Origin: Rhyzopertha dominica
Taxonomy: Eukaryota > Arthropoda > Insecta > Coleoptera > Bostrichidae
Assembly (NCBI GenBank): GCA_025024175.1
Contig: QCXZ01000053.1
Location: 13,268,001-13,332,000, forward strand
Reading direction: 5' to 3'
Length of the DNA stretch: 64,000 nt
Shown: piece after piece, positions 2,401 through 64,000 of the stretch
How positions within the stretch are numbered: the stretch's first letter is position 1
Layout: every line of letters begins with the position of its first letter
The notes under the pieces: generated by a model
Told to the model about the DNA's origin: nothing
Seen by the model: only the letters and a program-made list of their open reading frames with translations
The model's database searches: none
Translations under genes and position numbers: made by a program

Positions 2401-5400
2401 AGTGCCGATAACAATACAAGAAATAACAAAACGACTGTGTTTTTGTTTAGAACAGAATAACGGCTTATTTAAACTTTACTTTAGTAACAGAATATTATTG
2501 TCATTATTTGATTTCAAATTCACGTTTCTGATTGTCATGTTACTGATTTCTTGAAAAATTCTATGTAATTTTAAAAATATATTTGATGTGGTTGCCTTTC
2601 ATCCATAAGGCTCCTAGCATATTTGGCGTATTATTTAAATTAAATGTTTATTTGTAATATAAACATTTTCTTCAATAGGTAAATCCAATTTTCAATTGCA
2701 AATTGTAGTGCAGTACTGACCATAGCCAATGCTAACCATTCCAAATCAACTGTCAATAAAGAAAGTCGTTTTTATGGTTTTATATATAATCTATTCTAGG
2801 TCATGCGCACATTATGTTACTTTGACTAGTGTAGCTCGTCACAATATGGCGACAAGGTATTTCACAGATCTCTAATTTCGCAGGCTAAGTCCTCAGTACA
2901 GTATAAATTCACGTTGATGTTTTTAATGTTTTCCATATGTGAACATCCCTTGGAAGAGTAGCATAGTAACTATTCATTTTTTAAGAAATATTCACATTTT
3001 TCTGTACCAAAAGTAGCCTGCTAACGTCAAAACATCAACTATATATAACCTCTTGGTTGTTTTATAAGATCTCCAGGGATACGGAAGCCTTGATTTAGAT
3101 CATTTTAGGTTTAGAAAACTATACATCTGAAATTGAAAAGTGCAATATAACATAATAATGAGTCTTCTTTACAGTTTCAAACATATTTCAGTCGGTTGAT
3201 TTACGTAATTTTCGTAAGAAGAGTACTACAGATTGAATTAGGGTGAATTAGTGATGAGCTACCATTATGAAGTTATGTAGGGAAAATTGTTGATGGCAAC
3301 AATCGTAAAATCGATTGATCAGTACTTAGAGAAACTCATGGTGTTGCAAGTACAAAAAAGAATTTGTGATACATGTTACACCTCTAAAGCAGCACTAGAA
3401 CTACTTAAAAAGACACGCATGTTTTTGCACATAATGAACTGTACTTTTTTTAAATGGTGATTAAATAATTTTTGCATATCAGTGCATATATCTTACGACG
3501 CACTGCTTTTGTCCACTGCATGTTGCATTCCTTTCTTCATGGACGATTAATAAATGTGTATGAATGTAGGTCGGATGTTTTTATTTTAGTATAAAAACAA
3601 ATGACCACACAGTTTTGATTTTACCGTTTTTTTAGCGCTTCAGGCTTCAAGCATTTTTTGTTAACTTTATAATGTCCACCAATGCTNTTAAGTACAATTG
3701 CCACCCCATTAATAAATTATTTAACGTTCTACATGCATTAGGGTGCCAATGTGTGTAGATTGTCAGCGTTTTTAGTTTTCAATTAATTTAACAAAGCTTT
3801 TGACAAATACAGACTTTTTAAGGTATTAAAATGATTCGAAAAATATATGACGTCTGTGAAAAATTTGCTGCACGTNAAGATAAGTGCTGTACTTTAGTTC
3901 CGCCATTTTCCTTCGCATGACCTACATATCAAGATACCATGTTTTACATGTCGCTGAATTCAGAGAAAAATCTTTTTTATTCAATAAGACAACTCTAAAC
4001 TGAACTAAATATACCTAAAAGTGCCTTAAGGTCAAAGTAGAAAAATAGATTGGTTAGCAATAAACTAACATGATGACAAAACCACCTAGCAGCCTAAAAG
4101 GGAACTATTTCCTAAAAAAAAAGTGATCTCCTGTCTTGTCTTTTTTCTTAATACCCCAAAAACTGTTGAAATGTAACAGCAATCTACCTGAACCTACTGG
4201 GTATGATATTGTACGTTTATTTCCTGATGAAAATAGACGACGAATGCCAAATCGCAATGACTTGTTTCAACAGAACGACGCAGGCGCACCACCATATTTA
4301 GATACTATGTTGGGGCACTACTGAATGGGTCTCTTGATTTATGCCGATTAAATCTGCAAGAGCTCTAAATTAAAATTGGACACGGAAAAAATGCGCCACC
4401 TTCGAAATCAGTTGATATACAAAACAGAAAGTAGGCTAAGAAGTGAAAAAGAACTATAGAAAGAAACTTTTGTTAAGAACATTTTACCTTAAAGTTAATG
4501 TTTGCAGAAATAAGCCTATTATTACATGCTTTTGACTTTGTGTAGAAGTCCTAATCATATTTATCTCAAATTTTGGTACACAATAAGCAATCATTTTCAA
4601 GTTGGTTATTCTCTTAGGGATCTTTGTTTGTGTAGCAGGCGACGGCTAACTTGTTGCCTTTTTTGCTGGATATCGATAAAAAGACTGTGGCTGTAAAAAT
4701 TACAGTTATTCTGTTTTCGGTGTTAAAAAGTAATCTGTGTACAGATTTGTTAAGCTTGTTTTCTTGAAAACACCGTTTTGTTATCAATCAAAGTAGATGT
4801 TTCACTTTCACACTTTTTGCAAGGCTAACCGTGTACCTTGACATATAGGCATACAGCCCTCTAAACTAAACTTCTTGTTATTAACATTGGCGGTTATCAG
4901 AAGAACCCTCTACTACCGGCAACTCTCACCCTTCATATGTTCTCGAGCTGTGGATTGACTCCATTAAAGTTTGAACAGTTCAGATAAATTTGAAGCTATG
5001 GCTATCGCTTGTTGGATTTTTTATTTCTCAAGATATTTGTTGCTCCTTTTTTATAATACCACAGCAATGCATACTACACTTAGTTCCTTTTAATTTCTAA
5101 TTTCAGTGCGAAGTTAAACAGGTGCCGTACTATATACTGTACCTTGTTGAAGTAGTGTATATTCTCCACTCTTGACAATTTTTGCAAATACTCTATTATA
5201 TACGTAGTTATCAAATAAAGCCACCACAGTTTTGTGTGGTTTTGAGTTTTTACATCGACACATTTAAGGAATCTGTAGTTACCATAGACAAATAAGCGTT
5301 GGTGTCAGAAGACGAGTTTTCATATATGTTGACAACTGGCAACAACAGCCAGCGCCACCCAAGTCAGCTGTTGGTATTAAATTAAGAGCGGCGCGAAATA

Positions 5401-12780: not shown

Positions 12781-15199
12781 GCTTAGATTTTTTTGTATTT
12801 TGCATCAGCTTGGGCTTAAATGGAGAAAAAATACAGTTCTGAAGATTTTACATCTCCTTATTTTATGTATATTAAATATAAACATTATTTTAGGTTGGCA
12901 ATGGTCGTAATTTTTTAAGCACTCGCCATTTAGTTAGCTTCTAAATTTTATTATTATTTGTTATGTATTATTGATATAAGAATAAGATCTATTATTTCTA
13001 TTAACTATCATTACTATCATTGGTATCCATAAGGTTAATTTATTAAAAAAATACTCATGAAGAAAAATACCCTTTTTACAAAATACATTCATTATTTATC
13101 ATATTTACTATTATGGTTAGCTGGTATAAAAATGTACCTAATTTGGCATAAAACTGTATACTATATACTTATACTCTGTAATATTTAAGATTATCTCTCA
13201 TTGAAACAATTCTAATACCCCTATTTATCTTGATAGCACCATCTTTTTTACTGAAAAATGAATACTGAACTTCACAAAATGTTCTAACACCCTTTTTAAA
13301 TCGTTTATAATGGTATCAGCTTAGAATCATATTCTATAATAACTTATAAACTTATAACTATAAACAAAATTCGTTCAGAAATATCATGGACCATTTTCAA
13401 CGTAACGTTGAGCAACTTTAACTAAAATATATGTTTTAGTTACGAACACTCAGAGGGGTTTGTACAGTAATTCCCGCTAGGATTTAAAAAAACTAAAGCC
13501 ACGAGGACCCTCAACACTTTCGTTATCGATGGCAAGGGCGGATCCTACCTCTTGAGACACCGTAAACGTATAAGCTTTTTGTTCGCAGGCCATTCCGAAT
13601 GCCCGGCATCCATTACCGCAAAAGTCTGTTTAGTGGCTCTGAGTGCAAAGTTTGTTAGCATCTGATCCCGCTCGGCCAATTTAATAAAGGACGGGGTGGG
13701 GATGTTCGCGAAATTTCCTTAAAGAGTGGAAAATAAATTGGATTTTAACTGCCTTATGTTGCCTGAGCAATTATTTNCTCTTTTGTGAGACGAACTGCTC
13801 TGCCCACTAATGCGGAAAGTTTCGAGGACCGGCCTTCAGGTGATTTTATGATACTGGTTACGCTTAGCCCAGGAGGGACCGATCGTAAAGCTCCGTAGAA
13901 AATGTGCTCACGCACGACCCTTTTCGATTTACCTAAGCACTTACAAGAGATCGTCATATATCGTTTGCAAAGTGGAATTGTATATGAACCACAGTTTTCC
14001 TTTTGCTGGTCATAACGTCATTCAGCGGCGCTTTCATGAAACAAATGCGTATAGAAAAAAATAAAAATAGAGATTGCTGAGATTCTGCGTCTTAAAGGTG
14101 CTATGGGGACCTGCTGTCAAGTTGGCGTATGCAGGTACATGCCAATTTGGCAGAATACAGGTCACTTCCTTTAGGAAGTAGTTCCTTATAAGGCAGCTTC
14201 TCGCCACGTCAATTCTTTACTAGNAGATACATTGCCACCCACGTTTCTGCTTAAGTACTGCAGTATTATTTCTTTCATAATCCCTTTTCCATTCATACCG
14301 GATATACGGATAAATCTCAATAGTCACATGGAAGTTACTACATAAACTTATTGTTTCTCGATAAAGTAGTTAACATACTTTAAATGGTGTAGGTACACTT
14401 GGTGCTTCAAAAGCTTATTATGAATTCTTAACATGTTTAAGTGTTCTGCTTCTTTCTGAAGAGTTAAAAAAATTGCTAAACGTTTAATAAGGGAATCGAT
14501 TTGCACTTGTATGGATAAAGAGCAATTTTACTATATTTACAAGCATCATTTAACCAGGCATTCTAAGAAATCTAACTGGTCATTGCAAATCCGCTTAACG
14601 CAGTCATTTACAGCTTTAAGCAATGTAATTTTATCCATCCAGGTGCAAATTGGTTCACTTAAATATTTGTAAGGGCTGTATAGTCCTAGACAACAGTAGG
14701 GACCTGACGATATAAACTTCTAGGGCCGTAAAGTAATTTATTGTATCCTAAAAAATTATGATAACCTTAATCCACATGCATTATACTATCACAGCAGCAG
14801 CACTGATGTGAAGATGTTTAACGGGTTGTTTTACTTTTAGATAGTGGACGAGGACGTACATACAATCAATCTCAAAAAAATATCCCAAGCCAAAATCAAC
14901 ATTATAACTTGACAACAATTCCAGATACTTTAGCTTTTGTCTAATGATACATCGTACAGTATAGGTACCAGCAATTTTTATTAGTAACAAAACTTGACAC
15001 TTTTAAAAGAAATCAATATTTAACAATGTTACTCGTAGTATTAGTCAAATTATCAGTATACTAATGGCTGATATCAGCCGACAACCTAGTGCTAAACATT
15101 TGTGTTCTTCGCGTTTATTGAATTGTAGTGTACCTACCAAACAGGTCCTTTTGGAAGTGTTGTGTGGGTGTTATCCCGTATTTATATCATGTTATTATA
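12781..15199. other. Non-coding stretch with a GC-elevated core at 13440-13990
   Basis: No gene is recognised. About 13440-13990 is less AT-rich and more complex than its surroundings, compatible with a conserved non-coding element, but nothing identifies it. The rest is AT-rich intron-like or intergenic sequence. Confidence 0.35.
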
Positions 15200-17050: not shown

Positions 17051-18841
17051 GGATACGTATGTCTAATCCGCAGGATACGTACATGCCAAATTCGGTGTAA
17101 CAGTAAAATTTGTTGTCTTTATTACAAGATTTTAAGAGAAAATATTAAAATTAAAATTATTATATTTAATGTTGAATGCACTAACTCAGAACGAAACTAC
17201 ACTATTACGCTATTATTATACGTGTACAATCGTTAAAACAATTAATAGTATGAGGTGTCTAATAAAGTGTTCATCAAATAGTACTAACACTAGAAAAATA
17301 TACCAACAATGTATAAGTACAAAAAACATTACGTTACAAAGGATCGTAATAAAGTAAAAGTAATACAAGTAGGTAATTAATTTATTAATTAATTAAGCAA
17401 AGTAAGTGCAGGAAAAGCCTAGCAAAAAACAGCCGAGTTAAGTAAAATTACTTTGACTGGATTACCTCTTCTACTATTTAAGATACACGTGTCAATGTCA
17501 AACGTAGGAGTATGTACATCAAAGATACAACTACCCGGGATTTTATTAATGTAGTTATTCAATATTTGTTTGATTAATATTGTCAGTATCAGAATTCTTT
17601 AAGTTTTTAGCTTTAGTTTTTGTTAAAGTTAAAGTTAAATTTTGTGGTATTGTTATATACAATAGTTTACTTTTCTTAATATATTACGATCTCCAAGGTT
17701 TTAAGTTTAACAAGGTTAGATGGAAGATCGGGGGCATCTTGCGTCTTATCGATGTAAGTAGACATTGTTTTTTATATATTTTGTAATTTCTTTTCCAAAT
17801 AGAAAAACAAACACAGCTCCAAATACATAAATATCAATGAAATTGAGAAAGGTCATTGCATTTATTGATGAAACAATTTCACCAATTTGCATACATTATA
17901 AGCAAATAGTGGTCGTCAGTTATTTTGCGTGAAATGTAAAACAATGCCAGCTCTGATTTTGTATAAACATTCAGTATACTCGTATGCTGCTTGTTAAAAC
18001 AATTGTTTGAATAATACCAACGAGTGCTCTGCTAACAGTACTTTAAATATTTTGGAACGACTGAATACATAAAACATACAAAAGATTCCCATTAAAGTTA
18101 TTATAACTTGCGGGAATTTTGGTGAAATAAAGTGTCTCTATCATGAAAATATATATTAGAAGCTTTTAGTATGAACAGAAACAATATACTGTTTAGGACG
18201 CAGGCTTCTCTTTAAACTAGTAGTTCAATACAATGTAAATAGTGCCTAATGCACTTTCATAAGTGTAAGAATAGCAATTTTAAACCGCGAAGGTGGCAAA
18301 TCTCAAAAGCTTGGATTGACTTCTCTTTCACGTGAATACAACAGAGGTTCATTTAAAAAATCATCAGGTCACTTGTAACTTGTTGGCGGATGAAGGAGGT
18401 GCGAAAAAGAATGCCTAATGATGACATGATTTACCAAATTCATTTATGGAAATGAAAGCGCTACGGACAAAATCTGTTCATCACAGCCATTTTTCGCGGA
18501 CCAAAGCTTTCGATATGCCTGTTGCTGAACGTAAGCTTTTAAAATGATACGGTGCTTCTTTATAATAACTTAATTTTCTAACAAAGTAACGGCGATCGGT
18601 TTCCTGAAGTGACATGTTAGAATGTTATATCAAAACCTTAAACGACTTGATAATTTTTTTAAACGAACACCTATTATATTCTAATTATAGTAAGTGTCCC
18701 TAAAATGAACAAGAACTGGAAAAAAGCGTTTCAATGGATATAATGTCACGAAGACCAAATCAATTAGAAGGAAAACATAGTTAGTTTTTCATATTAAATT
18801 GAACTAAATACTCTTTAGCTGAAGCTAAACGTCAATTAAAC
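17050..18841. other. AT-rich non-coding stretch
   Basis: Nothing recognisable in either strand. Confidence 0.4.
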
Positions 18842-19047
18842 GTCATCATGTCAGTGTAATGCTGACAGATGGCATTGCCATCCTAAATTCTTACCTAAAT
18901 TTTACCGTTGCTTTGGTATATAAGCAAAACCAGTTCTATGCCGTGCTGTCTACACTAGACCTAAACTGCACTGATGAGCTGTAATGACAGCGAAATAGAT
19001 CTATCTGCAGTTGGTTGAGGTGCAGACAGCATAGACATGCATTTTAA
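18842..19047 (+). repeat. Dispersed hammerhead-bearing repeat, copy 1
   Basis: This 206-bp unit is shared with 40467-40646. Both start GTCATCAT and end ATGCATTTTAA, with long matching blocks between (for example GTGTAATGCTGACAGATGGC and ATCTATCTGCAGTTGGTTG). The 5' part has a stem-loop, TGTCAG-loop-CTGACA, and a TATATAAG sequence near 18917. The 3' part is a full hammerhead ribozyme. No open frame is present. Size, repetition and the embedded ribozyme resemble the short non-coding retroelements called retrozymes, or a Penelope-derived terminal repeat. Which one cannot be decided here. Confidence 0.8.
18943..19031 (+). ncRNA. Hammerhead ribozyme, complete catalytic core
   Basis: All invariant core positions are present. 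CTGATGA is at 18971-18977. Stem II is GCTGT/ACAGC with an AATG loop (18978-18991). GAA is at 18992-18994. A15.1 (18995) pairs with U16.1 (19004) across a short stem III, ATA-GATC-TAT, and C17 is at 19005, so cleavage is predicted after 19005. Stem I pairs CTGCA (18966-18970) with TGCAG (19006-19010). After an asymmetric internal loop it continues as TGCTGTCTACAC (18944-18955) with GTGCAGACAGCA (19020-19031), 11 of 12 bases paired. Open stem I with closed stems II and III makes it type I. The internal loop could supply the tertiary contact that natural hammerheads use. Cleavage itself is predicted, not shown. Confidence 0.85.
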
Positions 19048-19899
19048 TTTATATTTTCATTGTGATTGCTTTTGTACATAATGCTAATTGGACAGTTTAA
19101 TTTAAAAATTCATCGATTGCTGCATCCACTTGTGGGAAACTTCTTTACCTTGCGATTTGATAATATTTCGAAATGTCTTCGTCGATAACAGTTAGCTGAC
19201 GCTGGATTGGCCCAATTTACTGCAGCAGCCATTTGTCCTGACTTATAATCTTCAGTTTGCCTCGTATTAAATACTTACCTCATATCAGACATTTGATTGG
19301 AGATCTGATTTTCTTTGTGTCACCATTTTGTATTGATTACCATATTCGAGATCTCGCCGAGTCCTGAATTGATATCGCGTTTGACAACATTAAGTGTTTA
19401 AACAAAATTAAATAAAAGATAACTTACCTATTGAGTTAGTAATTCAGTTATTTCTGAAAGAGAAATTAATTAATTGCTTACCTACATGTATTACTTTTAC
19501 TTTCTTACAATCCTTTGCAACGTATTGTTTTTACATTGTTCTTGGTACATTTTTTTGGTGTTTGCACTATTCGATGAACACTATAGGGCACCTTATAATA
19601 TTATTAATTATTTTAACGATTGTAAATATGAATGCACACTCATATATCCAGTAACTGCAGTAAATATCACAGTTTCATTCTAAATTAGTGCATCCAGCGT
19701 TAAATATAATAATTTTAATTTTACTCTTACATTCATCTGTACAAATATTTTGTTAAAATCTTGTAATAAACGTATAATAATAGCTATATTTCTGGCTCGC
19801 ATCGTAATTCATAAAGCAACCACTACATGACAGACATAAACATTTTAGTCAATCTGTATGACTAAATTTATAGGAAATTCTGTTTATTCTTTTTATCCA
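19048..19899. other. AT-rich non-coding stretch
   Basis: Nothing recognisable. Confidence 0.4.
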
Positions 19900-40000: not shown

Positions 40001-40466
40001 GAAAAGGATTTTTTGGATAATTCGACCTTATTTGATAAAACGGTATTGCTTAATTCTATTAGTTCGTTAGTTTTCAGATTAGATGTTGATAACAATGTTG
40101 GCATTATTGTGATCTCGGTAAACCTCATCAACAACTAACTCATTATACAATGAAATGATGATAATTGACAACAGACATATTGTATTAAATTTTGTGGGAT
40201 CGGAGAAATCTTTTCAGGATTTCTCCGCACCAAAGCATGTTGGTACACAGATTCGCATACTTGCAATCTCAAAACTGCCACTATCTCGAAATGACAAACA
40301 TTTCGCACATCCTTTAAAAAACCTAAAGGGTAATATAATAATACAAAGCTGTATATATCATTTAAACAAATTTTCAGAATTTTCCCCGATTCCATTTGGG
40401 AGTTCTCTTACTCTTAATAACATGTCCTTTAGGAAGTAGATCCCATAATGGCAGTTAGGTGGCTTT
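37067..40466. other. Mostly AT-rich non-coding stretch
   Basis: No gene is assigned. 38460-38960 carries overlapping small open frames on both strands that look like decayed element coding sequence but match nothing I know. 39280-39670 is GC-elevated, including GGAACGGCGCGCGGCCCACT, and may be a mobile-element end or regulatory DNA. Confidence 0.35.
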
Positions 40467-40646
40467 GTCATCATATCAGTGTAATGCTGACAGATGGCAT
40501 TAACACCTAAATATTTACATCATAGCAAGCCTTTAGTATATAGTCAAAACCAGTTTCATGCCGTGCTGTCTGCACTAATGAGTAGAGTAGCGATCTATCT
40601 GCAGTTGGTTGTGGTGCAGACAGCACAGCATAGACATGCATTTTAA
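40467..40646 (+). repeat. Dispersed hammerhead-bearing repeat, copy 2 (ribozyme deleted)
   Basis: This is a relative of 18842-19047, with matching ends and the same 5' stem-loop (GTGTAATGCTGACAGATGGC). Outer stem I is kept and even better paired than in copy 1 (TGCTGTCTGCAC with GTGCAGACAGCA). Stem II and most of the core are missing: CTGATGA is reduced to CTAATGA and GAAA is absent. ATCTATCTGCAGTTGG, spanning the cleavage site, is retained. This copy cannot self-cleave. Confidence 0.85.
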
Positions 40647-45660: not shown

Positions 45661-47370
45661 TAGTAGTGTTGTCCATAGGTACTATAACTACATAATAAAA
45701 ATGTCACAGCAAAAAGAGACGCATTTTTCCATCTCTCACTCTAGTGGCAATTAACGTTTTGGACATAAAATAACTTTGGATTTTTAATTTTACACCATAG
45801 TCAGGTTTCGTTCCAATCATTTGATTTGCATCTGATTATAGCTGTTCTGTAAGCATACATATACTTTTTTTCCTTGAGAGTTTCGAGCATCATCCTACAT
45901 TGTATACCGATAACAATGGGCTGTTTTCATGATTTTTTTTATTGCATTATCTGAAAGAGCGTATCAAAAACTATGAATACAACACGTTGTTTTTTCGTTT
46001 CGATTAGTAAATTGCACTAAAAATTAAAATGAAATTTGAATTTGGTCTTGTGACGTAATAAATACATTTCTGTATGCATCAAGTATTAACAAACTTTCGA
46101 TAGATTATCTCTCTCATTTCTCATAAGAGTGAGTGTAAAGAAAAATCATATATACTGTTCGTATGTGAATTAGCAATTCGTAGTTCATTTGTACTGCTGC
46201 CCTCGCGTCTTGCACGCGCGTTTGCGTTTGTTTTGTTGTCGTACGTGACCTAGTTCAGGAAGACATCTCGTGTAAAGTTTTCTTTTGTGCCTTCAAGCAA
46301 AAACCTTCACTAACTGCACTTCTTGATGACATTGTAAGAAACCGGAGGCAGAACATAAGAAAACAGTTAAAAACAATGTAAAACAACAAAATAGAAATTT
46401 GAGATTGGTAAATAATAAACACCTGTGCGGGCTGTTGTCCTACTGGCTTGCTCTTAATTGAAAGATTGAAACTACTGTAGGGACGAGCAATGTTGCCATC
46501 ATGTGCTGACAAATAATAGTGATGTTTGAAACGTTAAAATTCGGAACTTTTCAGTAAATATATTATTATATTATTATGTATTATTAAAATATTACTATTT
46601 GTGTTATACACTAATAAGTAAATGTAGAAGTTCAAAATAAATAAAAAAGAAATAATGCTGCCTATTAAGTGTTACATGTAACAACGCTGTAAGGTAGTTT
46701 ATATGATAACAGATTCATGACGTCATATAAACTTTAAACTATTATTAATTATACTTTATACATCAACTTTGATAGTTAATCAAATAGCTCGTCCAACTCC
46801 AAACACAAAGTACTTTGACGCAAAATTACTTATTTTACGTTTTTTGGTTGTGGGGAACGAGCCCATTGCAGCAAAAGTTTCTGGTGTGAATGCTAAAAGG
46901 ATATTGTCGCAAATCGCGATATTATTGTAGCTGGTGACACCTGCAGGCAACATTGTTACTTATACGCTGCACAGTAATACAGGAATCGAACTCCTGGCTT
47001 GCGGGTGCTCGGTATTCTACTTGATAGTCAGTACATTGTAACATAGAGCGCGCCAGCAGTTCGAACAACAGGTTGTATAATGTAAAGATCCCTGTACTGT
47101 TTACCTGGTAGCGGTCGGTATGGAAGTGACGTTTGCTTGGCTAATTTAGGTTATAATTTTCTATAAACCTTTTTTGTTGTTTACAAGATTTGAGGCGATT
47201 AATCGTTGATTATTATTACCAACTGAGTTTGTATAGTGCCTTATTCAAACAAGTAAGTTTTTACGTTAACACATTACATTTTTATGAGATTTATGTGGAT
47301 GTTGTTAAATGCATGACTAATAATTTAGAATATGAGCAAACTGTGACTTACCCGTTAACTTTTATTGCAG
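45661..47370. other. Non-coding stretch, probably 5' intron of aPKC in its right part
   Basis: No element is recognised. It ends in a clean splice acceptor (TTTATTGCAG, 47361-47370), so an upstream untranslated or alternative exon of aPKC must exist, but it cannot be located. Around 46980-47060 are GAATCGAACTCC and CAGTTCGAAC strings that do not fold into a tRNA. Confidence 0.4.
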
Positions 47371-47642
47371 AACCAAAATGCCTACACAGGATTCCGAAAA
47401 AGAGATAAAGGCTAAAATAGCCTTTAATGGTGATGTACTTATTACATATATTAATAAGGACATCACTTTCGAGGAACTTACGGAGGAAGTGAAGGAAATG
47501 TGCAAGTTTGACGACCTTGTTGCATTTACCATTAAATGGGTGGATGAGGAAGGTGATCCTTGTTTGCTGAGTACGCAGCTTGAGCTGGATGAGGCAGTCA
47601 GACTCTACAATATAAACAGAGACGCAGAGCTATCTATACATG
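47371..47642 (+). CDS. aPKC: Atypical protein kinase C, first coding exon (PB1 domain)
   Basis: The exon lies between acceptor TTTATTGCAG and donor G|GTGAGT (intron from 47643). ATG at 47378 starts MPTQDSEKEI, 7 bp after the acceptor. The 88 codons encode a PB1 domain: basic residues K11 and K13, the strands AFNGDVLITY (15-24), helix FEELTEEVKEMC (31-42), and the acidic OPCA motif WVDEEGDPC (54-62) followed by STQLELDEAVRLYNINRD. This is very close to the start of animal PKC iota/zeta and fly aPKC, whose PB1 binds Par-6 in the apical polarity complex. The exon leaves in phase 1 after His88, where the next residue is Val in fly and human proteins (GTN), so the split codon fits. The C1 and kinase exons are not within the following 16 kb as far as I can see. 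Confidence 0.93.
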
Positions 47643-48245
47643 GTGAGTTTTTCATGTTTTTCTGGACTTGCCAGCCTGTAACATATGTCCAAATATGCAA
47701 ATTGGTTCACATTTTGTGCTAAATGTACATCTATTTAATTCTGTATAGTCATATCCACAATATTAAGATAAACCGACTCACTAGTATTTATCAAGAGGTC
47801 TCCCACTTCAAAAGAAAAAGTACATATATTGTCAAATCAGTACATTTTGGAAGTAATTCCAAGCAGCCAAATACTTCCGATTCATTCTTGATAACGCTGC
47901 GGTACGTACTATTAGGCCAAATCGAAGGCAAAATGTAAGTACATGGTACATGTATCCTGGAGCGACTCTATGGTATTTATGTTCATTCTTGCTTCCATGC
48001 AAGATCGTTAGCTGTTATGCATTTGGTGTGATCATAATGATTTTGCTGCAAATGTCACTTGTCACAGCTGTGGTAGAGGCATGATGCGCCTTTTGTTATT
48101 TTAAAAATGCTTGAAAGTGAACCATAATTATTATTTACTCATTTTTCATAACGTGGATAATAGATTCTTATGAATTACTTCTGCGTTAATTAGTGTGCTA
48201 TGTACTCTATTGAAATAATAAATATTGAAAATGCAATTATTAAAA
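47643..48245. other. aPKC intron, unremarkable part
   Basis: Starts with the consensus donor GTGAGT; nothing else recognised before the Penelope-like insertion. Confidence 0.5.
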
Positions 48246-48291
48246 ATGCAAATTAAATACGAGGGTGAATGCTTTCAGCGTCCATAATATA

Positions 48292-48505
48292 ATAAGATAA
48301 TATTTTGTCGGATAGATCACTGTCCCTTGAAAAACACTGACAAAAAATTAATAGTCTGACGTTTCAATTACACCTGTAATCTTTGTCAAAGACGAAGAAC
48401 CTCAAAATTTGCCTGACACAAGTTCAAACAAATTTTTGAAAGTAAATAAACAAATCACCAAGGAAGCGAGACGTCATAGAAACAACGTGCCAACCTGATA
48501 AAAAA
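48292..48505 (+). repeat. Left inverted pseudo-LTR of the Penelope-like element
   Basis: It is the reverse complement of 48916-49129 with very few differences. It carries, on its minus strand, the decayed hammerhead described for the right arm. Confidence 0.9.
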
Positions 48506-48848
48506 TTCTACTAAAGATAAAGTACATTTAGAGAGTGAAGGTGTTTACAAAATTACTTGTTCTTGCGGAAAGTGTTACATAGGTCAAACAAAAAGAAAAG
48601 TAGGTACGCGTTTGAAAGAACACATACGTGCTACTAGGTTGCAACAGATAGATAAATCTTCCGTAGCTGAACACTCATATTTGACTAGACACATGATTGA
48701 TTTTGATAAAACAAAAATTTTACATAGAGAAAAATATTATCACAAACGTCTAATAAAAGAAGCTATAGAAATTTGTAGGAATACTAATAATTTTAATAGG
48801 GATTATGGAAATTATGAGTTAGGTGACATTTGGAAGGCTATTTTGTAG
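48480..48848 (+). CDS. Penelope-like GIY-YIG endonuclease fragment
   Basis: The frame is open from 48480 (after a TAG at 48477) to the TAG at 48846-48848, about 122 codons. Its first codons lie in the left repeat. The GIY-like triad GVYKI is at 48540, followed by CSCGKCYIGQT (about 48564-48590). The pair of cysteines before YIG is characteristic of the Penelope lineage. Next come the catalytic Arg in GTRLKEHIR, the conserved H in AEHSY and TRHMI, the catalytic Glu region RLIKEAIEI, and N in NFNRDYGNY. The C-terminus ends W-K-A-I-L. In full elements this domain follows the reverse transcriptase and nicks the target. The domain itself is uninterrupted, but it is orphaned from its polymerase and lacks a natural start. 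Confidence 0.88.
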   Translation, partial: KQRANLIKNSTKDKVHLESEGVYKITCSCGKCYIGQTKRKVGTRLKEHIRATRLQQIDKSSVAEHSYLTRHMIDFDKTKILHREKYYHKRLIKEAIEICRNTNNFNRDYGNYELGDIWKAIL

Positions 48849-48915
48849 TTATCTTTTATCTAGTAGTTCGTGTATATCTAGTAGGTAGGTAGTTCCTTTT
48901 TCATCGTTAGGTTCC

Positions 48916-49129
48916 TTTTTTATCAGGTTGGCACGTTGTTTCTATGACGTCTCGCTTCCTTGGTGATTTGTTTATTTACTTTCAAAAATTTGTTTGAACT
49001 TGTGTCAGGCAAATTTTGAGGTTCTTCGTCTTTGACAAAGATTACAGGTGTAATTGAAACGTCAGACTATTAATTTTTTGTCAGTGTTTTTCAAGAGACA
49101 GTGATCTATCCGACAAAATATTATCTTAT
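48916..49129 (+). repeat. Right inverted pseudo-LTR of the Penelope-like element
   Basis: It matches the left arm in inverse orientation and borders the 13-bp target duplication, whose first two bases coincide with the end of the repeat. Confidence 0.9.
49028..49067 (+). ncRNA. Decayed hammerhead motif in the Penelope-like terminal repeat
   Basis: TTGACAA (49032-49038) occupies the CUGANGA position with C3 and G8 changed. A 6-bp stem II GATTAC/GTAATT with loop AGGT follows, then GAA (49056-49058), A15.1, CG, U16.1 and C17 (49063). Stem I GTCT/AGAC closes the structure. The layout is hammerhead, but the two core changes predict inactivity. The same motif lies inverted in the left arm. Confidence 0.5.
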
Positions 49130-49140
49130 GCAAATTAAAT

Positions 49141-52412: not shown

Positions 52413-52667
52413 GTAAGTATTCAGTTTCCACAATTGTTATTAGTTTGTTGGGTATATTTCCTTTAGTATGGAGAGTTTAAATGATTTCTGATGTTCTGTG
52501 GTAGGAAAATATTTGAGTGTTTACTTTAAATTGTCTTGCGGGGACGACTGAAACAAACGACACGGGGGACGATTGAAACATGTTTCAATTGTCCCCATCG
52601 CGATCTTCCCGTGTTGTATTACTTATAAATTGTGTTAGGGTATCTTAAAGCTTTAATTTTGTTTTAG
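52413..52667 (+). other. Probable intron in the transposase 5' untranslated region
   Basis: A donor GTAAGTATTC at 52413 and acceptor TTTGTTTTAG ending at 52667, directly before GATGCC, suggest a spliced leader. The subterminal palindrome lies inside. Inferred from splice consensus only. Confidence 0.5.
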
Positions 52668-52668
52668 G

Positions 52669-54488
52669 ATGCCACGAGTAAGGGTGAGAAAAACAGAGAG
52701 AGGTTTAAAATCCGTTTCGATATATGAAGAAGCCTATAAAGAAGTTATTGAGAAAGAGGCATCAATAAGGTCAGTGGCAGCGAAATTTGGATTGCACTAT
52801 GTTTCTTTAAGTAGATTTATAAAGAAGAGAAAGCTAGCAATTGAACAGGGATCCCCTATTCCTGTCACTATGCGTTTTCGTTGTGTGAGACGAGTATTTG
52901 ATGTAAACCAGGAAAAGAGCATGGTTAGATATATAATCAAAGCCGCGCATATATTCTACGGGTTACCACCCAAGGAAATTCGCAAACTAGCCTTTCAATT
53001 AGCCGTGAAATATTCGTTGAACATGCCTTATACATGGAAACAAAATGCCATGGCAGGACAGGATTGGTTCTCTGGTTTCATGAAGCGTAACCCAGAACTT
53101 TCAATTCGCTGTGCTCAAGCCACAAGTCTTTCCAGAGCAACCAGCTTCAATGTTTCTAACGTAAAACTTTTTTATGACAACCTGGCTAATGTAATGGACA
53201 GGTATAAATTTGAACCGAAAGATATCTACAATATCGACGAAACAGGTGTCACTACGGTCCAAAAACCTGTGAAAATTGTAGCCGAAAAGGGAACCAAACA
53301 GGTAGGCGCACTAACATCAGGGGAAAGAGGAACGCTGGTAACAGTAGCTTTAGCTGTAAATGCTATCGGCAACAGTGTACCTCCCATTTTTATTTTTCCA
53401 CGGTTAAGATACAAGGATCATTTCGTCCGTGACGGCCCAGTGGGTTGTATTGGAGCAGGAAATGCAAGCGGCTGGATGCAAGAAGATGAATTCTTGATAT
53501 ACCTGAACCATTTTCAAAAGCATACTAATGCTTCAATTGAAAATAAAGTATTGCTTTTACTTGATAACCACCAGTCCCACATAGGTATACGATGTTTGGA
53601 CTTCTGTAAAGGAAATGGCATTGTCATCTTGTCATTTCCCCCGCATTGCTCTCACAAACTGCAACNATTAGATCGATCTATCTACGGTCCTTTTAAAAAG
53701 GCTGTAAATTCAAGCTGCGATGCTTGGATGAGGAATAACCCAGGCAAAACGATAACAATTTACGACATCCCAAGCATAGTCAAACAAGCTCTTCCACTAG
53801 CCCTCACACAATCAAACATTGCAGCTGGATTTGCTTGCACCGGAATATTTCCCTTTAATAGGGATATATTTACGGAACTAGATTTTGCTCCTTCCTATGT
53901 TACGGATAGATCAGCTCCTGATAACACAACCAATACCGCTGAAGTAGCAAAAGCCAGCACCAGCGAAGCTCTGCCATCTCCTAACAGCACTCATACTTTG
54001 CCAGCATCAACAAGCATTCACACTCCGCCAACATCACCAAGCACCCACACTCCCCCAGCATTAGCAAGGACCTCAAAGGTTATATTTTCGCCAGAGATCG
54101 TCCGACCGCTCCCGAAAGCGCTTCCTAGAAAAATAGCTGGCAAACGGAAAGGTAGGAAGTCAGCAATTTATACAGATACACCTGAAAAAATGCTATTCAA
54201 GAGGAATGTGAGGCGAAAAAGAAAAAACAAGTCAAGAGAAATCTTACAGAGTTAGAAGATAAAGCTATATTAGCTCGACAAGCCAAGAAAACCAAGCAGC
54301 GCCAAAACAAAAAGGAACAGAGTGACAGCGACGAAGAGGACTGTTATTGTTTAGTTTGTCTGGAACCTTATAGTAGAAGCCGTCCTGGAGAGAAATGGGT
54401 ACAATGCCTTGAATGTCGTCAGTGGTCCCACGAGGAATGCACCCAGCAAGAAGATCTTTATACCTGTCATAATTGCTTGTCAGAGTAA
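52669..54488 (+). pseudogene. pogo-type transposase, one frameshift before its zinc finger
   Basis: ATG 52669 opens a 528-codon frame to a stop at 54253-54255. Residues 15-52 form a pipsqueak/HTH-like domain (SIRSVAAKFGLHYVSLSRFI). A CENP-B-type DNA-binding region follows to about residue 165 (AGQDWFSGFMKRNPELSIR). The DDE_1 catalytic domain has D190 (YNIDETGV), D299 (LLLDNHQSH) and D335 (HKLQ-x-LD); the residue before L is ambiguous through an n at 53666 but fits Pro. A Ser/Thr/Pro-rich linker spans about 430-470. At the A run 54185-54190 one base appears lost. In the next frame the protein would run on through ELEDKAILARQAKKTKQR and an acidic patch to a PHD-like zinc finger (CYCLVCLEPY...WVQCLECRQWSHEEC...YTCHNC), ending at 54488. 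The two frames together look like the original protein. Confidence 0.88.
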
Positions 54489-56205: not shown

Positions 56206-56787
56206 TCAAAAATTCACGGTTTGGTCACAATTAAACTTTTAGATGCCAAATTTTGGGAATATAGATAAAATAAAACATCATACTTGTTACCATAGTAAGC
56301 ACTTTTTTTAGTGAAAGGTGTACAGGCCAACTAGATGTCATAGCTTCAAAAACTGAGGCATTTTAATACACATACGTGGTATATATTCCTTCCTTTTTTA
56401 ACTTGGATATTATTGCCATTGAATAAAAAACATACTCTTTACCGAGTACCCTTTTCTGTAAAAAATGATAATTCAGTAAAGGTTGATTTTTTAAAAATAA
56501 AATACCAACTTGTAGATAATTTTATGGTAAGATTCTTTTTTTCGATAAGTAACCCCAAACGAGATACAGCGGAAAAAGTCCCTATTTTCTTAAAAAAGGG
56601 GATTCTCGATAACAATTGGACCACGGCATACCTCTTTCCTGGGATATTAGTGGAGAAGGGTATTGAATATTTGATAACCTGCTGAAATTAGTATTGTTGT
56701 AATTTTTTGCGGTTGGTTGTTTTCTTCAATTAGAAACGGGTGTAATTTATGTATTCTTATCGATTTATATTAAAAAATTACGGTATT
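56206..56787. other. AT-rich stretch
   Basis: A 90-codon open frame at 56413-56685 (+) has no recognisable motif; nothing else is seen. Confidence 0.35.
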
Positions 56788-57618
56788 ACTTCCACATGCA
56801 ACAGATGGGAAGTATTGTATCGATTAAAAAAAAAACAAATTTTTTTATTTGCTCATTCGCTTTAAAATGGTCGAAAACGCAAAAAAAAACAAAATTTGAG
56901 CAAAAAATTTCTTGTCTGTGGTTTTGTTTGTAGACACGATAACTTTCGAAAGACTTAATAATATATGAACTTGAAATTTGGCAAACGTATAAATCTCAAC
57001 TACCCAAAGCGACCTAATGTTTGTGGGGTAAGTAGAGTATCGGGAAGGGGGCAAAATTGGGGGGTAACTACCCTTTTTGCAAATTTTATTTTTTTTATAT
57101 TTTTTTCGTTTTAGTGTGTGATTAGTAGTATAACTGCGAGTATTAATCGCTCTTATAAATTTTCGGTGCAGCAAACTGTTTAGAAGATATTAGCAAAAAA
57201 GCGTCACTTAAAGAAAACGGTTTTCCTAAACATCTCCGGATATATTTAATATATTCCAAAAGTGAAAATTCCTTCAGATAGGAAATAAAATTTCTCACAA
57301 AAAGTGTCTTAGAAAATTTATTCAAAATTTTGACATTTTCGAAATATTTCCAAAAATCCTACGTTTTTTTTTAATTTTGGTATTATGTATAAATTAAATT
57401 TCTGATCAGAAAGTACTCTTGTAATTTTTTTGTTAAGTTAATAATTTTCGAGTTATTTGGAAAAAAGCGATTTTAAAATTTATATATTTTTGCTAACATC
57501 ACGAGGACTTTGTCTTAGAAAAAATGTGTAGAGAGACAAAATGCTCAAAATCTGATTACTAATCGTATAGTAAAGAAATAAAAACGTAAATGTCATTTTG
57601 ACAATTGGATGTGGAAGT
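56788..57618. mobile_element. 0.8-kb TIR repeat, copy 1
   Basis: It starts ACTTCCACATGCAAC and ends TTGGATGTGGAAGT, a 14-bp terminal inverted repeat with one change. It is similar throughout to 63166-63981 (for example GCTCATTCGCTTTAAAATGG and TTTTTTTGTTAAGTTAATAA in both). No coding capacity is apparent. ATT borders both ends in both copies, and the following bases ATTGATTCAA are also shared, so the true repeat may be longer than the inverted termini. Confidence 0.78.
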
Positions 57619-57739
57619 ATTGATTCAATTTGCAGCGGTTTTTTAGCTAAGCCGATAAACTTAATTCATCCTACTTGAGCGAATAATTCCAAAGGTTACT
57701 AAGTATTTTAGGTGTACTCACAATGCTATTCATGCAGTT

Positions 57740-58559: not shown

Positions 58560-59375
58560 TACTTTGAAAATCACGGAAATCACAGAGGAATTTTTATCCC
58601 CCTTTGTACACTTAAGAGTATAATTTTCCCAACAGTTAAAAGCGAGTATTAATTTCTAAACAAATACGTAAATACGTAATGCATATTAAATACTTCATAA
58701 ATAATTCAACTTCAAATAATGTTATCTCTTATTTTACCTTCAAAGAATTTAAAAAACCGTGTACTTATTCTTTTCTGAATAATAAAGTTTCATGCTTTCA
58801 CCTTCAAAAGATGATAGAACTCCCATAAAAATGTTCATCCCCCATTTCACCCCCTGAATGGTTCAAACGATGGAACACGTTAATTTATTTATAATCAAAA
58901 GCCTAAAAAGTTCCATGCTTCTAGCTTCAAAAATGACGCACCAAACTTTCGTCCCCTCTTTCATCCTCTTAAGTGTAAAATTTATAAAAACGTTGGAATA
59001 CATCTTTATGTACAATCGAACCCTAGAAATAAAGTTTCATGATTCTAGCTTCAAAAATATCAGATTAAACTTTCATCCGCTATTTCATCCTCTTAAGGGT
59101 GGAATTAGGAAAAACGAACACTCGTTTATTTATTTCTAATCAAAATCTTTAAAATAAAGTTTCATGCTCCTAGCTTAAAAAAATAACGGACTTCCTGCAT
59201 CCCCGATTTCACACTTTAAAGACAGAATTTACAAAAATTATGTAATACTAATTCATTTATTTATAATCGAAAGCCTAAAAATAAAGTTTCATGCTCCTAG
59301 CTTTAAAAATGACGGACTTCCATGCAAACTTTCAACCCTTGTTTTAACCCCTTGGGGGATGAATTTCCCAAAATT
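58560..59375. repeat. Minisatellite, unit about 125 bp
   Basis: AATAAAGTTTCATGCTTCTA-type starts recur at about 58781, 58904, 59028, 59154 and 59280, a regular 123-126 bp period. Each is followed by a TTCAAAAATGACG-type block, a block resembling TTTCATCCCCTATTTCATCC, a CTTAAGGGTGGAATT block and TTATTTATAATC. More diverged units probably extend left to about 58560. Five recognisable units with substitutions indicate an old array. Confidence 0.85.
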
Positions 59376-61695: not shown

Positions 61696-63007
61696 TCAAT
61701 CAAATTAGAAGAAAAATTGATTGATTGAACCAGCGTACGGGCCGGCCGTCTACGCTGGGTTGGAGGGGTACATGCTGATTGCTAGTAGTGCGACTGCCTA
61801 GCGCATGTTAAGGACATATATGGATTGGAGCGGGAAGGTTATATAGGTACATTCATTTTATTTGAATGTTTCCTTAGTGTTGCTGGCATCATTGGTCCAT
61901 TTCGGAGTCACTGGTTTCTGTAATGTCGTATAGCCTGAGGGATTCTTCGTTGATTAATTTCTTGTCTCTTGCCATTTCTATCAATTGTTCTTCATTCTTC
62001 CCTGATTTTGAATTATCCTTTCTATAGTTGTTTTCCATGTCTAGCACGGTCTACCTTTTTTTAGTTTGTCTCCGCTTAGCTCCCAGGCCTTTCTTAGTAT
62101 GTGGTCTACTTCTCTCCTTTGGATGTGTCCCCAGTATTTCATTACGTATGTCTCTATTCTCTTTATGATCGTTCTGCCACCTAGAATTTGAGCTGTTGAT
62201 TTTTCCTTGTTTTCGTTTATTGCCTTAGCTAGAAGTTGTACATTACCTTTATCTGCCTTTCTCAAGCTTTTCCTATTTGCCTTTGTCGTTGCGGCATTTT
62301 TTACTCAATACGTCATGACTGGCATAATGATTGATGTATATAGAATCTTTATCAATTTCCAGTGTGGTTTATGTTTCTCTATAAATGGTAATATCGCCCT
62401 TGTTACTCTGTGTGCAGTTTTGATTCTTTCTCTAACCGTCTCTCTGCGGCTAAGATGGCTGGTTATGTACGTACCTAGATATTTCATTTTGTTTGTTGTT
62501 TTCAAAATCCGGTTCCCTATCTTGTATTTTGTGCCCGTTTCGAGGATTGCTCTGTTGGACGGATCTCTTATCATGATGTTGCTTTTCGTGTAGTTTATTG
62601 TTAGTCCATATTTGTGGAGTTCGTGTTCTGCATTTTCTAAGAATTCTACCAAGTCAATTTCGTTTTCCGCGATTATTATCAGGTCATCTGCATATGCAAA
62701 GACTATAGGTAGTGCTATTTCATTCTCCCGCTTGTTAAGGGTTTCCGTGTTAGTTATGGTTTTTTGGAGAGCTTCATCTAGTACGATTGTGAAAATACGG
62801 AGAAATATTGTACATTCCTGTTTCACGCCTCTGCTTTTCTGTTTCGTTGGTGTTGTTTGTCCGAACAACTGCACTGTAGTATTTTCGTGTAGGCAAGCTT
62901 TTATTATTCTGTTGATTAAGTAGTGAGGGACCCCTTTGTCCATTAGGATTTGTGGTACTACTTCATGGTTTATCGTATCAAAAGTCAATCAAATTAGAAG
63001 AAAAATT
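61696..63007 (-). mobile_element. 5'-truncated LINE with 23-bp target duplication
   Basis: A 23-bp sequence beginning TCAATCAAATTAGAAG occurs at 61696-61718 and 62985-63007, bracketing a 1266-bp minus-strand LINE fragment. The 3' end (at 61719) has a short simple tail, TTCAATCAATC, as in LINEs that end in simple repeats rather than poly(A). The 5' truncation lies inside the reverse transcriptase. Perfect target duplications suggest a comparatively recent insertion. Confidence 0.9.
62041..62988 (-). pseudogene. LINE reverse transcriptase, C-terminal half
   Basis: The minus-strand frame 62988-62305 begins at TFDTINHEVVPQILMDKGVP (the first palm block). It continues with KSRGVKQECTIFLRIFTIVL (where KGVRQGCxLSPxLF is expected), the catalytic FAYADDLIIIAENE, GLTINYTKSNIMI, and KMKYLGTYITSHLSRRETVR. 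After a break, frame 62265-62041 carries the C-terminal YVMKYWGHIQRREVDHIL and GDKLKKGRP, typical of the region after the polymerase domain (RWxGHxxR...GRP). The YADD aspartates are intact, but the N-terminal polymerase and the endonuclease are absent and a frame interruption lies near 62270-62305. The clade (RTE-like or similar) cannot be fixed. Confidence 0.88.
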
Positions 63008-63165
63008 ATTTTTAAAATATTGCAATTACTTGCGGCGTTACGATTGTGCAACATTAAAAAAAATAAAAATATTTTCCATGCTTTTACCGTCCATTTACCA
63101 TTGACGATAAAAGTCGTATAATGGTCTGAATTACTTGATTATTTATAATGAAAATTCAGACTATT
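63008..63165. other. Short AT-rich stretch
   Basis: Continuation of the pre-insertion sequence; nothing recognised. Confidence 0.4.
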
Positions 63166-63981
63166 ACTTCCACATCCAACGGATGGGAAATATTGTATCG
63201 CGAAAAAAAATATCAAAAATTTTTGTTTGCTCATTCGCTTTAAAATGGGCGAAAACGAAAAAAAAAAACAGAATTTGAGCAAAAACAAATTTCTTGTCTG
63301 TCTGTGGTTTTGTTGTGGACACGATAACTTTCGAAATACAATATATGAACTTGAAATATGGCAAACGTATAAATCTCAACTACCCAAAGCGAGGGCGAAA
63401 TTGGGGGGTAACTATCCTTCTTGCAAATTTTTGTTTTTTTTTTGTTTTAGTATGTGGTTAGTAATATAACTGCGAGTATTATTCGTTTTTATAAATTTTC
63501 GGTGCAGAAAACTGTTTAGAAGATATTAGCAAAAAAGCGTCACTTAAAGAAAACGGTTTTTCCGAAATATCTCCGAATATATTTAATATATTCAAAAAAT
63601 GAAAATACCATCAGATAGGAAATAAAATTTCTCACAAAAAGTGTCTTAGAAAATTTATCTAAAATTTTGACATTTTCGAAATATTTCCAAAAAGCGTATT
63701 TTGGACCCTGCTCGTACGATTGTTTTTTTAAATTTTGGTAATATATAGAATATCAAATTTCTGATCAGAAAACACTCTTGTAATTTTTTTGTTAAGTTAA
63801 TAATTTTCGAGTCATTTGGAAAAAAAACGATTTTAAGAATTTATGTTTTTGCTAATATCACGAGTACTGTTTGTTTTAGAAAAAATGTCTGGAGAGAAAA
63901 AATGCTATAAACCTGATACCTAATCGTATAGTATAAGAAATAAAAACGTAAATGTCATTTTGAGAAATTGGATGTGGAAGT
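63166..63981. mobile_element. 0.8-kb TIR repeat, copy 2
   Basis: Same orientation and structure as 56788-57618, starting ACTTCCACATCCAAC and ending TTGGATGTGGAAGT. It differs by substitutions and small indels, including loss of part of the GC-rich segment near 63390. The termini here are an exact 14-bp inverted match. Shared sequence continues toward the end of the window. Confidence 0.8.
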
Positions 63982-64000
63982 ATTGATTCAAATTGCATCA

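Follow-up and report, generated by a model that had tools for sequence, protein, structure and literature searches.

A 352-bp hammerhead retrozyme of Rhyzopertha dominica with two fixed insertion ends, likely spread by a Penelope-like enzyme

The window analysed here, a 64-kb stretch of Rhyzopertha dominica DNA, contains a copy of a dispersed 352-bp repeat which we read as a non-autonomous retrozyme of the metazoan type, likely spread by a Penelope-like reverse transcriptase and endonuclease that copies its RNA, probably circular, from both strands of a cut target (probability about 0.7). Comparison of its copies across the genome brings out, at the level of sequence, the repeat itself, pair changes in its ribozyme, two fixed ends, arms that face apart, target duplications, microhomology where the arms meet, and arms that continue past the cut site of the ribozyme. 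Throughout, PMC numbers refer to excerpts of the papers cited.

A hammerhead fold in a dispersed repeat

The earlier note on this DNA had placed a complete type I hammerhead at 18943-19031, and the read-out of the sequence bears this out: the invariant core is present (all 12 of the core letters checked), there are three stems, and stem I is the open one (Table 1). Both the five pairs of stem II and the five of the inner helix of stem I can be read from the window sequence, and the outer helix of stem I is paired at 11 of 12 positions, as the note had it, the exception being A18952 opposite C19023. An internal loop in stem I is also present; the note had described it without any helix within, however, and four pairs (GACC/GGUU) lie inside it. 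On paper this is a type I hammerhead, with cleavage predicted after 19005. Folding of the 131-nt stretch 18930-19060 gives z = -3.5 (matched by 1 of 200 shuffles), and the segment 18842-18905 folds at -17.6 kcal/mol (z = -4.3 against shuffles).

Table 1 Features of the retrozyme copies and of the Penelope-like insertion in the window (window coordinates).
Feature	Position	Strand	Basis or remark
One-armed, 5'-truncated retrozyme copy covering unit 1-216, with its end at site B	18842..19052	+	94% identical to the L003 unit
Hairpin box GUCAUC-A-UGUCAG...CUGACA-GAUGGC, upstream of site A	18842..18873	+	Predicted fold
Site A position (unit ~52-59), internal in the window copy	18893..18900	+	A ends of 48 A-B insertions elsewhere
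Outer helix of stem I, 5' strand: TATGC + C + GTGCTGTCTACAC; A18952 mismatched	18937..18955	+	Alignment and pair counts
Outer helix pairs in the window copy	UGCUGUCUACAC 18944-18955 / GUGCAGACAGCA 19020-19031	+	11/12 paired
Outer helix, 3' strand; C19023 opposite A18952	19020..19031	+	5 nt shorter than in most aligned copies
Stem I middle helix, GACC / GGUU	18958..18961 / 19013-19016	+	95% of cells paired (50 copies); in the HH9 alignment
Stem I inner helix, CUGCA / UGCAG	18966..18970 / 19006..19010	+	Sequence and pair counts
Hammerhead core CUGAUGA	18971..18977	+	Sequence and HH9 alignment
Stem II, GCUGU (18978-18982), loop AAUG, ACAGC (18987-18991)	18978..18991	+	One compensated pair
Core GAAA (G12-A15.1)	18992..18995	+	Sequence and HH9 alignment
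Stem III and loop, palindrome AUAGAUCUAU: AUA (18995-18997), GAUC, UAU (19002-19004)	18995..19004	+	
C17; predicted cleavage after this base (unit 164/165 boundary)	19005..19005	+	Sequence
Site B terminus TAGACATGCATTTTAA, where the arm has its fixed 3' end	19032..19047	+	B ends over 48 insertions
Second retrozyme arm, ending at B; core lost, outer helix kept (12/12 by eye)	40425..40646	+	
Retrozyme fragment, unit 238-342	14094..14198	+	
Retrozyme fragment, unit 314-25	4053..4116	-	
Penelope-like insertion	48246..49140	+	13-bp target duplication, one-sided tail, inverted pLTRs, GIY-YIG frame

The note had also proposed an Rfam covariance search, with a score below threshold to count against the fold. 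In that search the fold was aligned to HH9 (RF02275), the best match in 1 kb (28.5 bits, E = 8.2e-5), but this score lies under the gathering cut-off of 52, by which the copy is not a member of RF02275; no Rfam family matched at gathering score anywhere in the 64-kb window. By the note's own measure the low score formally counts against the fold, but HH9 models one vertebrate family, and we therefore give it little weight, the more so as pair changes across copies back the fold. The likeness to HH9 lies in the same core and in a stem I made up of an internal loop, a GACC/GGUU-type middle helix and an outer helix. The note's description of the outer helix as unusual is thus not upheld, since the HH9 model also has one beyond the internal loop and the circles of published metazoan retrozymes are highly self-paired (PMC7229834).

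Among 104 copies that span the hammerhead, the outer-helix pair that is mismatched in the window varies as A-T (55 copies), G-C (27), A-C (18) and G-T (1), with a gap in 3, and one pair of stem II varies as G-C (92), A-T (11) and A-C (1). The change between A-U and G-C at the window's A.C position is a compensated one, so that the outer helix, which grows to 13 + 5 pairs in most aligned copies, is likely real and a structural part of the ribozyme, as the note had suggested. All 12 tested core letters are kept in 81 of the 104 copies, and the core is kept in 25 of the 31 copies from loci chosen on the B end only. In an alignment of 50 distinct copies, standard pairs fill 96.0% of 1739 cells against 95.4% in shuffles, and 20 cells, in two pairs, are changed on both sides against a shuffled mean of 9.3; none of 500 shuffles was as high on either count. 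The covariation score of this alignment (0.050 against 0.041 shuffled) was likewise reached by no shuffle. The same 50 copies gave no excess over shuffles in the number of pairs with two-sided change (2, reached by 342 of 500) or of further pair types (18, reached by all 500).

The alignment drew on 67 distinct spanning sequences, of which 17 were left out, several of them with insertions or deletions in the hairpin, and its pair counts therefore favour structure; the 104-copy counts were made without that selection. Conservation of the outer helix is biased because some loci were picked on parts of it, and the covarying columns, 16 and 87, are not among the letters fixed in the locus search. 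The pair changes in the outer helix and in stem II look like subfamily changes, so that few independent events would be involved. Together with the core kept in most copies, the compensated changes suggest that the hammerhead fold seems to be maintained in source copies.

Stem III has three A-U pairs only, with A15.1-U16.1 counted. Between A15.1 and U16.1 inclusive lie ten bases, which are AUAGAUCUAU in 70 of the 104 copies and AUAGUACUAU in 15. Each version is a perfect palindrome, and the two differ by two substitutions; neither of the one-step intermediates was seen among these copies, and the switch may rest on one event. We read the preservation of the palindrome through a two-base change as a sign that stem III can form between two units, and a palindromic stem III would fit a dimeric hammerhead of the kind described for newt and axolotl repeats, in which stem III pairs between two units (PMC7229834). 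Those satellite hammerheads, as described there, share a short stem III, a palindromic tetraloop cap and repeats of ~330-350 bp; the retrozyme stem III has three pairs with A15.1-U16.1, and the retrozyme would act as a dimer by analogy with that description.

The earlier note had instead supposed that the long outer helix locks the open stem I and perhaps allows efficient cleavage of a monomer. The outer helix does co-vary among copies, and monomer cleavage is reported for the hammerheads of invertebrate retrozymes (PMC7761336). Folding makes efficient cleavage as a monomer doubtful, however: with its three A-U pairs, stem III has a probability of 0.0 in the computed fold, and the native fold is 7.7 kcal/mol less stable than the computed minimum, these energies being those of secondary structure, with tertiary contacts ignored. 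The preserved palindrome fits the dimer and speaks against the monomer without refuting it.

Copies of the repeat stand head to tail at a spacing of 352 bp in locus L003, where the unit has 43% GC, and tandem units occur in L016 as well. A 116-bp stretch found 41 matches in its own genome (with 40 of 2103 first-look candidates scored), the outer-helix flank pattern, in which only the two flanks are fixed, found 875 copies, and the 22-nt B end ACAGCATAGACATGCATTTTAA has 3041 exact copies; backwards-pattern controls for the latter two found 0. With four fragments in the window and hundreds to thousands of copies in the genome, the note's call of a dispersed repeat is confirmed. No open frame of at least 80 aa overlaps the window copy, the second arm gave no hammerhead match, and an exact search of viral contigs with the 40-nt core returned 0 matches. 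Folded as a 352-nt circle, the unit is predicted at -122 kcal/mol.

Short, low-GC tandem repeats with a type I hammerhead are what characterises metazoan non-LTR retrozymes, and this is what is found here. The retrozymes of PMC7229834 share with the present repeat the type I hammerhead, low-GC tandem repeats of ~170-400 bp, thousands of copies, the lack of an LTR and a highly paired circle, the last of which is here a prediction only. Their RNAs are reported there as linear and abundant circular forms, and their target duplications, when present, exceed 4 bp. The present repeat differs in having two alternative fixed ends and arms that face apart, whereas the excerpted text of that paper reports tandem copies.

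Two fixed ends and the arms between them

The 98 loci that we read were picked in three ways: 30 by hammerhead similarity, 30 by the flanks of the outer helix, and 38 by the B end, the last being the first 30 of the list together with 8 others. Once clusters less than 15 nt from a locus end had been dropped, the 98 loci gave 91 distinct clusters. The largest class, with 48, consists of insertions of two arms that face apart and have their outer 3' ends at two different places on the unit, site A (unit ~56) and site B (~212). The remainder are 2 B-B, 1 A-other and 5 B-other insertions, 32 single arms (27 ending at B, 5 at A) and 3 clusters without a fixed end. By BLAST segments, the A ends of the 48 A-B insertions lie at unit 51-71 (43 of them at 51-59) and the B ends at 209-218; on the retrozyme unit the two ends are 155-197 nt apart. 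One of the B-B insertions (L002) may belong to a larger insertion as its inner portion, with an A-type end on the outer left, and the other (L022) has no duplication. The first 30 loci with a B end (L061-L090; 28 distinct insertions) comprise 18 A-B insertions, 10 with a single arm or nearly so, and no B-B. Among the open-access papers listed in literature searches, no title or abstract opening reports two-ended or inverted retrozyme insertions, though full texts or other papers may.

Loci selected in these three ways would show A-A insertions only by chance, and the A-A rate rests on 7 clusters from a survey of exact marks. This survey used 100 B marks and 82 of 100 A marks, matched to the stretch of the B list, and covered the first 16.8 Mb of contig C1. 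It gave 113 clusters, of which 33 were head-to-head: 18 A-B, 8 B-B and 7 A-A. When read, the 7 apparent A-A clusters resolved into 5 A-B insertions (one of them, L103, being L044 and already counted), one that is cut by the locus end (L099), and one A-A insertion without duplication (L101). Five of the 8 apparent B-B clusters were read in all: four overlap A-B loci (L069, L028, L027 and L053) and one, L045, reads as B plus another end. Since apparent A-A and B-B clusters mostly turned into A-B on reading, exact marks seem to understate the A-B share. L045 (1497-1903) is itself two-armed with a 13-bp duplication, and its second end is found not at A but at unit ~324, which may mark a third start site.

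Dispersal with target duplications, a further mark of retrozymes, is seen in the A-B insertions. Exact duplications of at least 9 bp flank 37 of the 48, against 7 of 1010 mismatched flank pairs, and duplications of at least 12 bp flank 31, against 1 of 1010. The window copy itself is without one (none of at least 6 bp flanks 18842-19052); it belongs to the 27 single arms ending at B, of which 2 have a duplication of at least 9 bp. Over 38 two-armed insertions (the 37 and L045), the letters of the duplications are 84% A+T against 64% for the loci, a figure partly due to letters that the element ends share with the duplications. The arms of the same 38 insertions overlap at their centres by a median of 3 nt, against a random mean of 0.7. 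No poly-A or simple tail was found in the end sequences at A or B.

In unit coordinates, the cut site is reached after 48 nt of copying from B and after 245 nt from A. Arms of at least 60 nt make up 82 of the 86 B arms and arms of more than 245 nt make up 13 of the 54 A arms, both crossing the cut site; lengths here are the unit coordinates spanned, the figure for B arms is inflated by loci selected on the hammerhead, and a few arms carry internal deletions. Arms longer than one 352-nt lap number 11 of 86 at B and 7 of 54 at A. If cut linear RNA were the template, inner ends should pile up at the cut site, but no such excess was found beyond 2-4 of 140 arms: two of the 86 B arms end at unit 160 and two at 154, and none of the 54 A arms ends within 160-170. 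As most arms pass the cut site, the template was mostly uncut there, and circular or multimeric. Two B arms (L083, 1497-1552, and L085, 1501-1552) stop at unit 160, near the 164/165 cut, perhaps through rare copying of cut linear RNA.

Similarity between copies within one insertion is a weak test for a single circular template. Such copies differ by a median of 4.5%, against 5.7% between insertions (one-sided p = 0.054). No rare variant is shared in 27 of 32 within-insertion pairs, the mean number shared being 0.44 against 0.07, and the haplotype at columns 16/87 agrees in 24 of 32 pairs, against 37%.

Penelope-like elements and other features of the window

Inverted pLTRs, a one-sided tail and a target duplication, the marks of a Penelope-like element, are found together at 48246-49140. 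The 13-bp duplication ATGCAAATTAAAT stands at 48246-48258 and 49128-49140, where about 9e-5 such 13-mers would be expected in the flanks by chance; it emerges when the tail is allowed for, and an automatic search that ignored the tail found none. The tail is 33 nt long (48259-48291) and present on the left side only, and the inverted pLTR arms (48292-48505 and 48916-49129) are identical at 213 of 214 positions. With 1 difference in 214 bases between the arms, the insertion is probably young.

This copy holds only the GIY-YIG part of the element, as a frame of 122 aa at 48480-48845. None of Pfam, NCBIfam or solved structures names this frame, and its kind is taken from its homologues and from the anatomy of the insertion; of four homologues, two carry Pfam GIY-YIG (PF01541). 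A genome search with the frame gave 10,061 first-look candidates, and the 150 that were scored are 94-100% identical, with open frames of up to 805-814 aa. Neighbouring pairs within 5 kb among the 150 number 27, of which 24 face apart (minus-plus) and 3 are minus-minus; none faces together (plus-minus) or is plus-plus. The same genome is hence home to a Penelope-like family of the same insertion shape as the retrozyme. Another GIY-YIG frame, from a second family and located in L086, matches a 463-aa protein (P0005) at 100% identity over 294 aa; the frame's own GIY-YIG match (E = 0.0023) lies below Pfam's cut-off, and P0005, which carries Pfam RVT_1, would tie it to a reverse transcriptase.

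Excerpts on other Penelope-like elements describe much the same build. Rotifer Penelope elements have inverted pLTRs, an optional 31-bp tail on one inverted arm, and duplications of 8-10 bp (PMC3846280). The purified Penelope-like protein of Anolis cleaves both strands of AT-rich target DNA, extends them, and initiates internally at two neighbouring sites (PMC11167929). Head-to-head inverted arms, target duplications, two internal start sites and the extension of both strands are thus shared between the retrozyme and these elements (PMC3846280, PMC11167929). The retrozyme differs in that its window copy is without a frame of at least 80 aa and in the spacing of its start ends, which are 155-197 nt apart against ~33 nt in the window's Penelope-like copy, and it carries a full hammerhead in place of the minimal Penelope form (PMC7761336). 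Compared with the retrozyme unit, the window's Penelope-like copy showed no convincing shared sequence (best E = 0.12, one copy), and no hammerhead was found in that copy.

Several other features were noted in the window. An inverted pair of another repeat (17118-17390 and 19464-19757, 73% over 302 columns) flanks the hammerhead copy on both sides. At 52657-54485, a 532-aa DDE_1 transposase frame precedes another frame that matches a PHD finger at 22.2 bits, under the Pfam cut-off of 24. A direct repeat (56740-57634 and 63116-63997) is 82% identical over 933 columns, 58567-59373 is internally repeated, and a reverse transcriptase fragment on the minus strand at 62308-62988 (RVT_1, E = 1.2e-13) reads as LINE-like. 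The PB1-domain exon (PF00564) at 47336-47719 probably belongs to a host kinase gene, which we guess to be that of an atypical protein kinase C.

A proposed mechanism and its alternatives

In the mechanism that we propose, tandem units would be transcribed into multimers that self-cleave at their hammerheads, perhaps in dimeric form through the palindrome of stem III, and the resulting monomers would be circularised by a host ligase. AT-rich DNA would then be opened by a Penelope-type enzyme with staggered cuts ~13 bp apart; of the two target 3' ends, one would start copying the RNA at site A, the other at B. Each would be extended over a variable distance, in some cases for more than a full lap, and the two cDNAs would finally join through microhomology of a few bases. 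That the RNA cuts itself, that it is circular, which enzyme acts and in what order the steps occur are what we infer. Two fixed ends, the extension of both strands and AT-rich duplications fit the mechanism of the Anolis Penelope-like protein, to which the A-B rule would add that the two target strands use different RNA sites.

A LINE-type enzyme could also be imagined to move the retrozyme, the inverted arms then arising by twin priming. Duplications of ~13 bp and 5' truncation would suit LINEs too, and the LINE-like reverse transcriptase fragment lies in the same window. Twin priming, however, yields a single fixed 3' end, and 48 of the 91 clusters have both outer ends fixed, at two different sites. 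The lack of a poly-A or simple tail at either end and the facing-apart build of the Penelope-like elements in the same genome add to what makes a LINE origin improbable. It would be very surprising if the inverted arms belonged to a fold-back DNA element, or to a satellite array spread by recombination, with the hammerhead as a passenger. Tandem units do occur in L003 and L016 and inverted arms do look like fold-back elements, but the outer ends differ in sequence, with no terminal inverted repeat seen, the inner ends vary among copies, and dispersed copies have target duplications of their own.

The template could, on the other hand, be an uncut linear multimeric transcript, with no circle formed and no role for the hammerhead in insertion. 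In the Anolis system, where the hammerhead cleaves only with the protein present, hammerhead mutants leave insertion in vitro unaffected, so that the ribozyme may not matter for insertion, and unprocessed RNA is suggested as the main substrate (PMC11167929). The hammerhead copies inside one retrozyme insertion also differ, as given above, though later mutation would give the same result. Against a linear template stand the compensated changes in stem II and the outer helix, the core kept in 81 of 104 copies, and the abundant circles reported for metazoan retrozyme RNAs (PMC7229834), which together lead us to regard it as rather unlikely and to favour copying from a circle.

The excerpts of PMC7229834 and PMC7761336 name Penelope-like elements as a candidate partner of animal retrozymes, a strong one in PMC7229834, and go no further, and in them both the mover of these retrozymes and the circle as its template have so far been proposed, not proven. 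The insertion ends described here amount to a signature that could be tallied from the genome sequence of any animal, and sites A and B pin down two RNA positions for work with a purified Penelope-like enzyme. A wider reading, that animal retrozymes are satellites of Penelope elements, with one enzyme complex priming both strands on one circular ribozyme RNA, one at A and one at B, and copying round it, sometimes for over a lap, to give paired cDNAs that face apart and are joined by microhomology, is tentative, and we would put it a little short of even odds. If general, the A-B rule would mean that each target strand has its own RNA start site, and this would explain the one-sided tail of Penelope elements.
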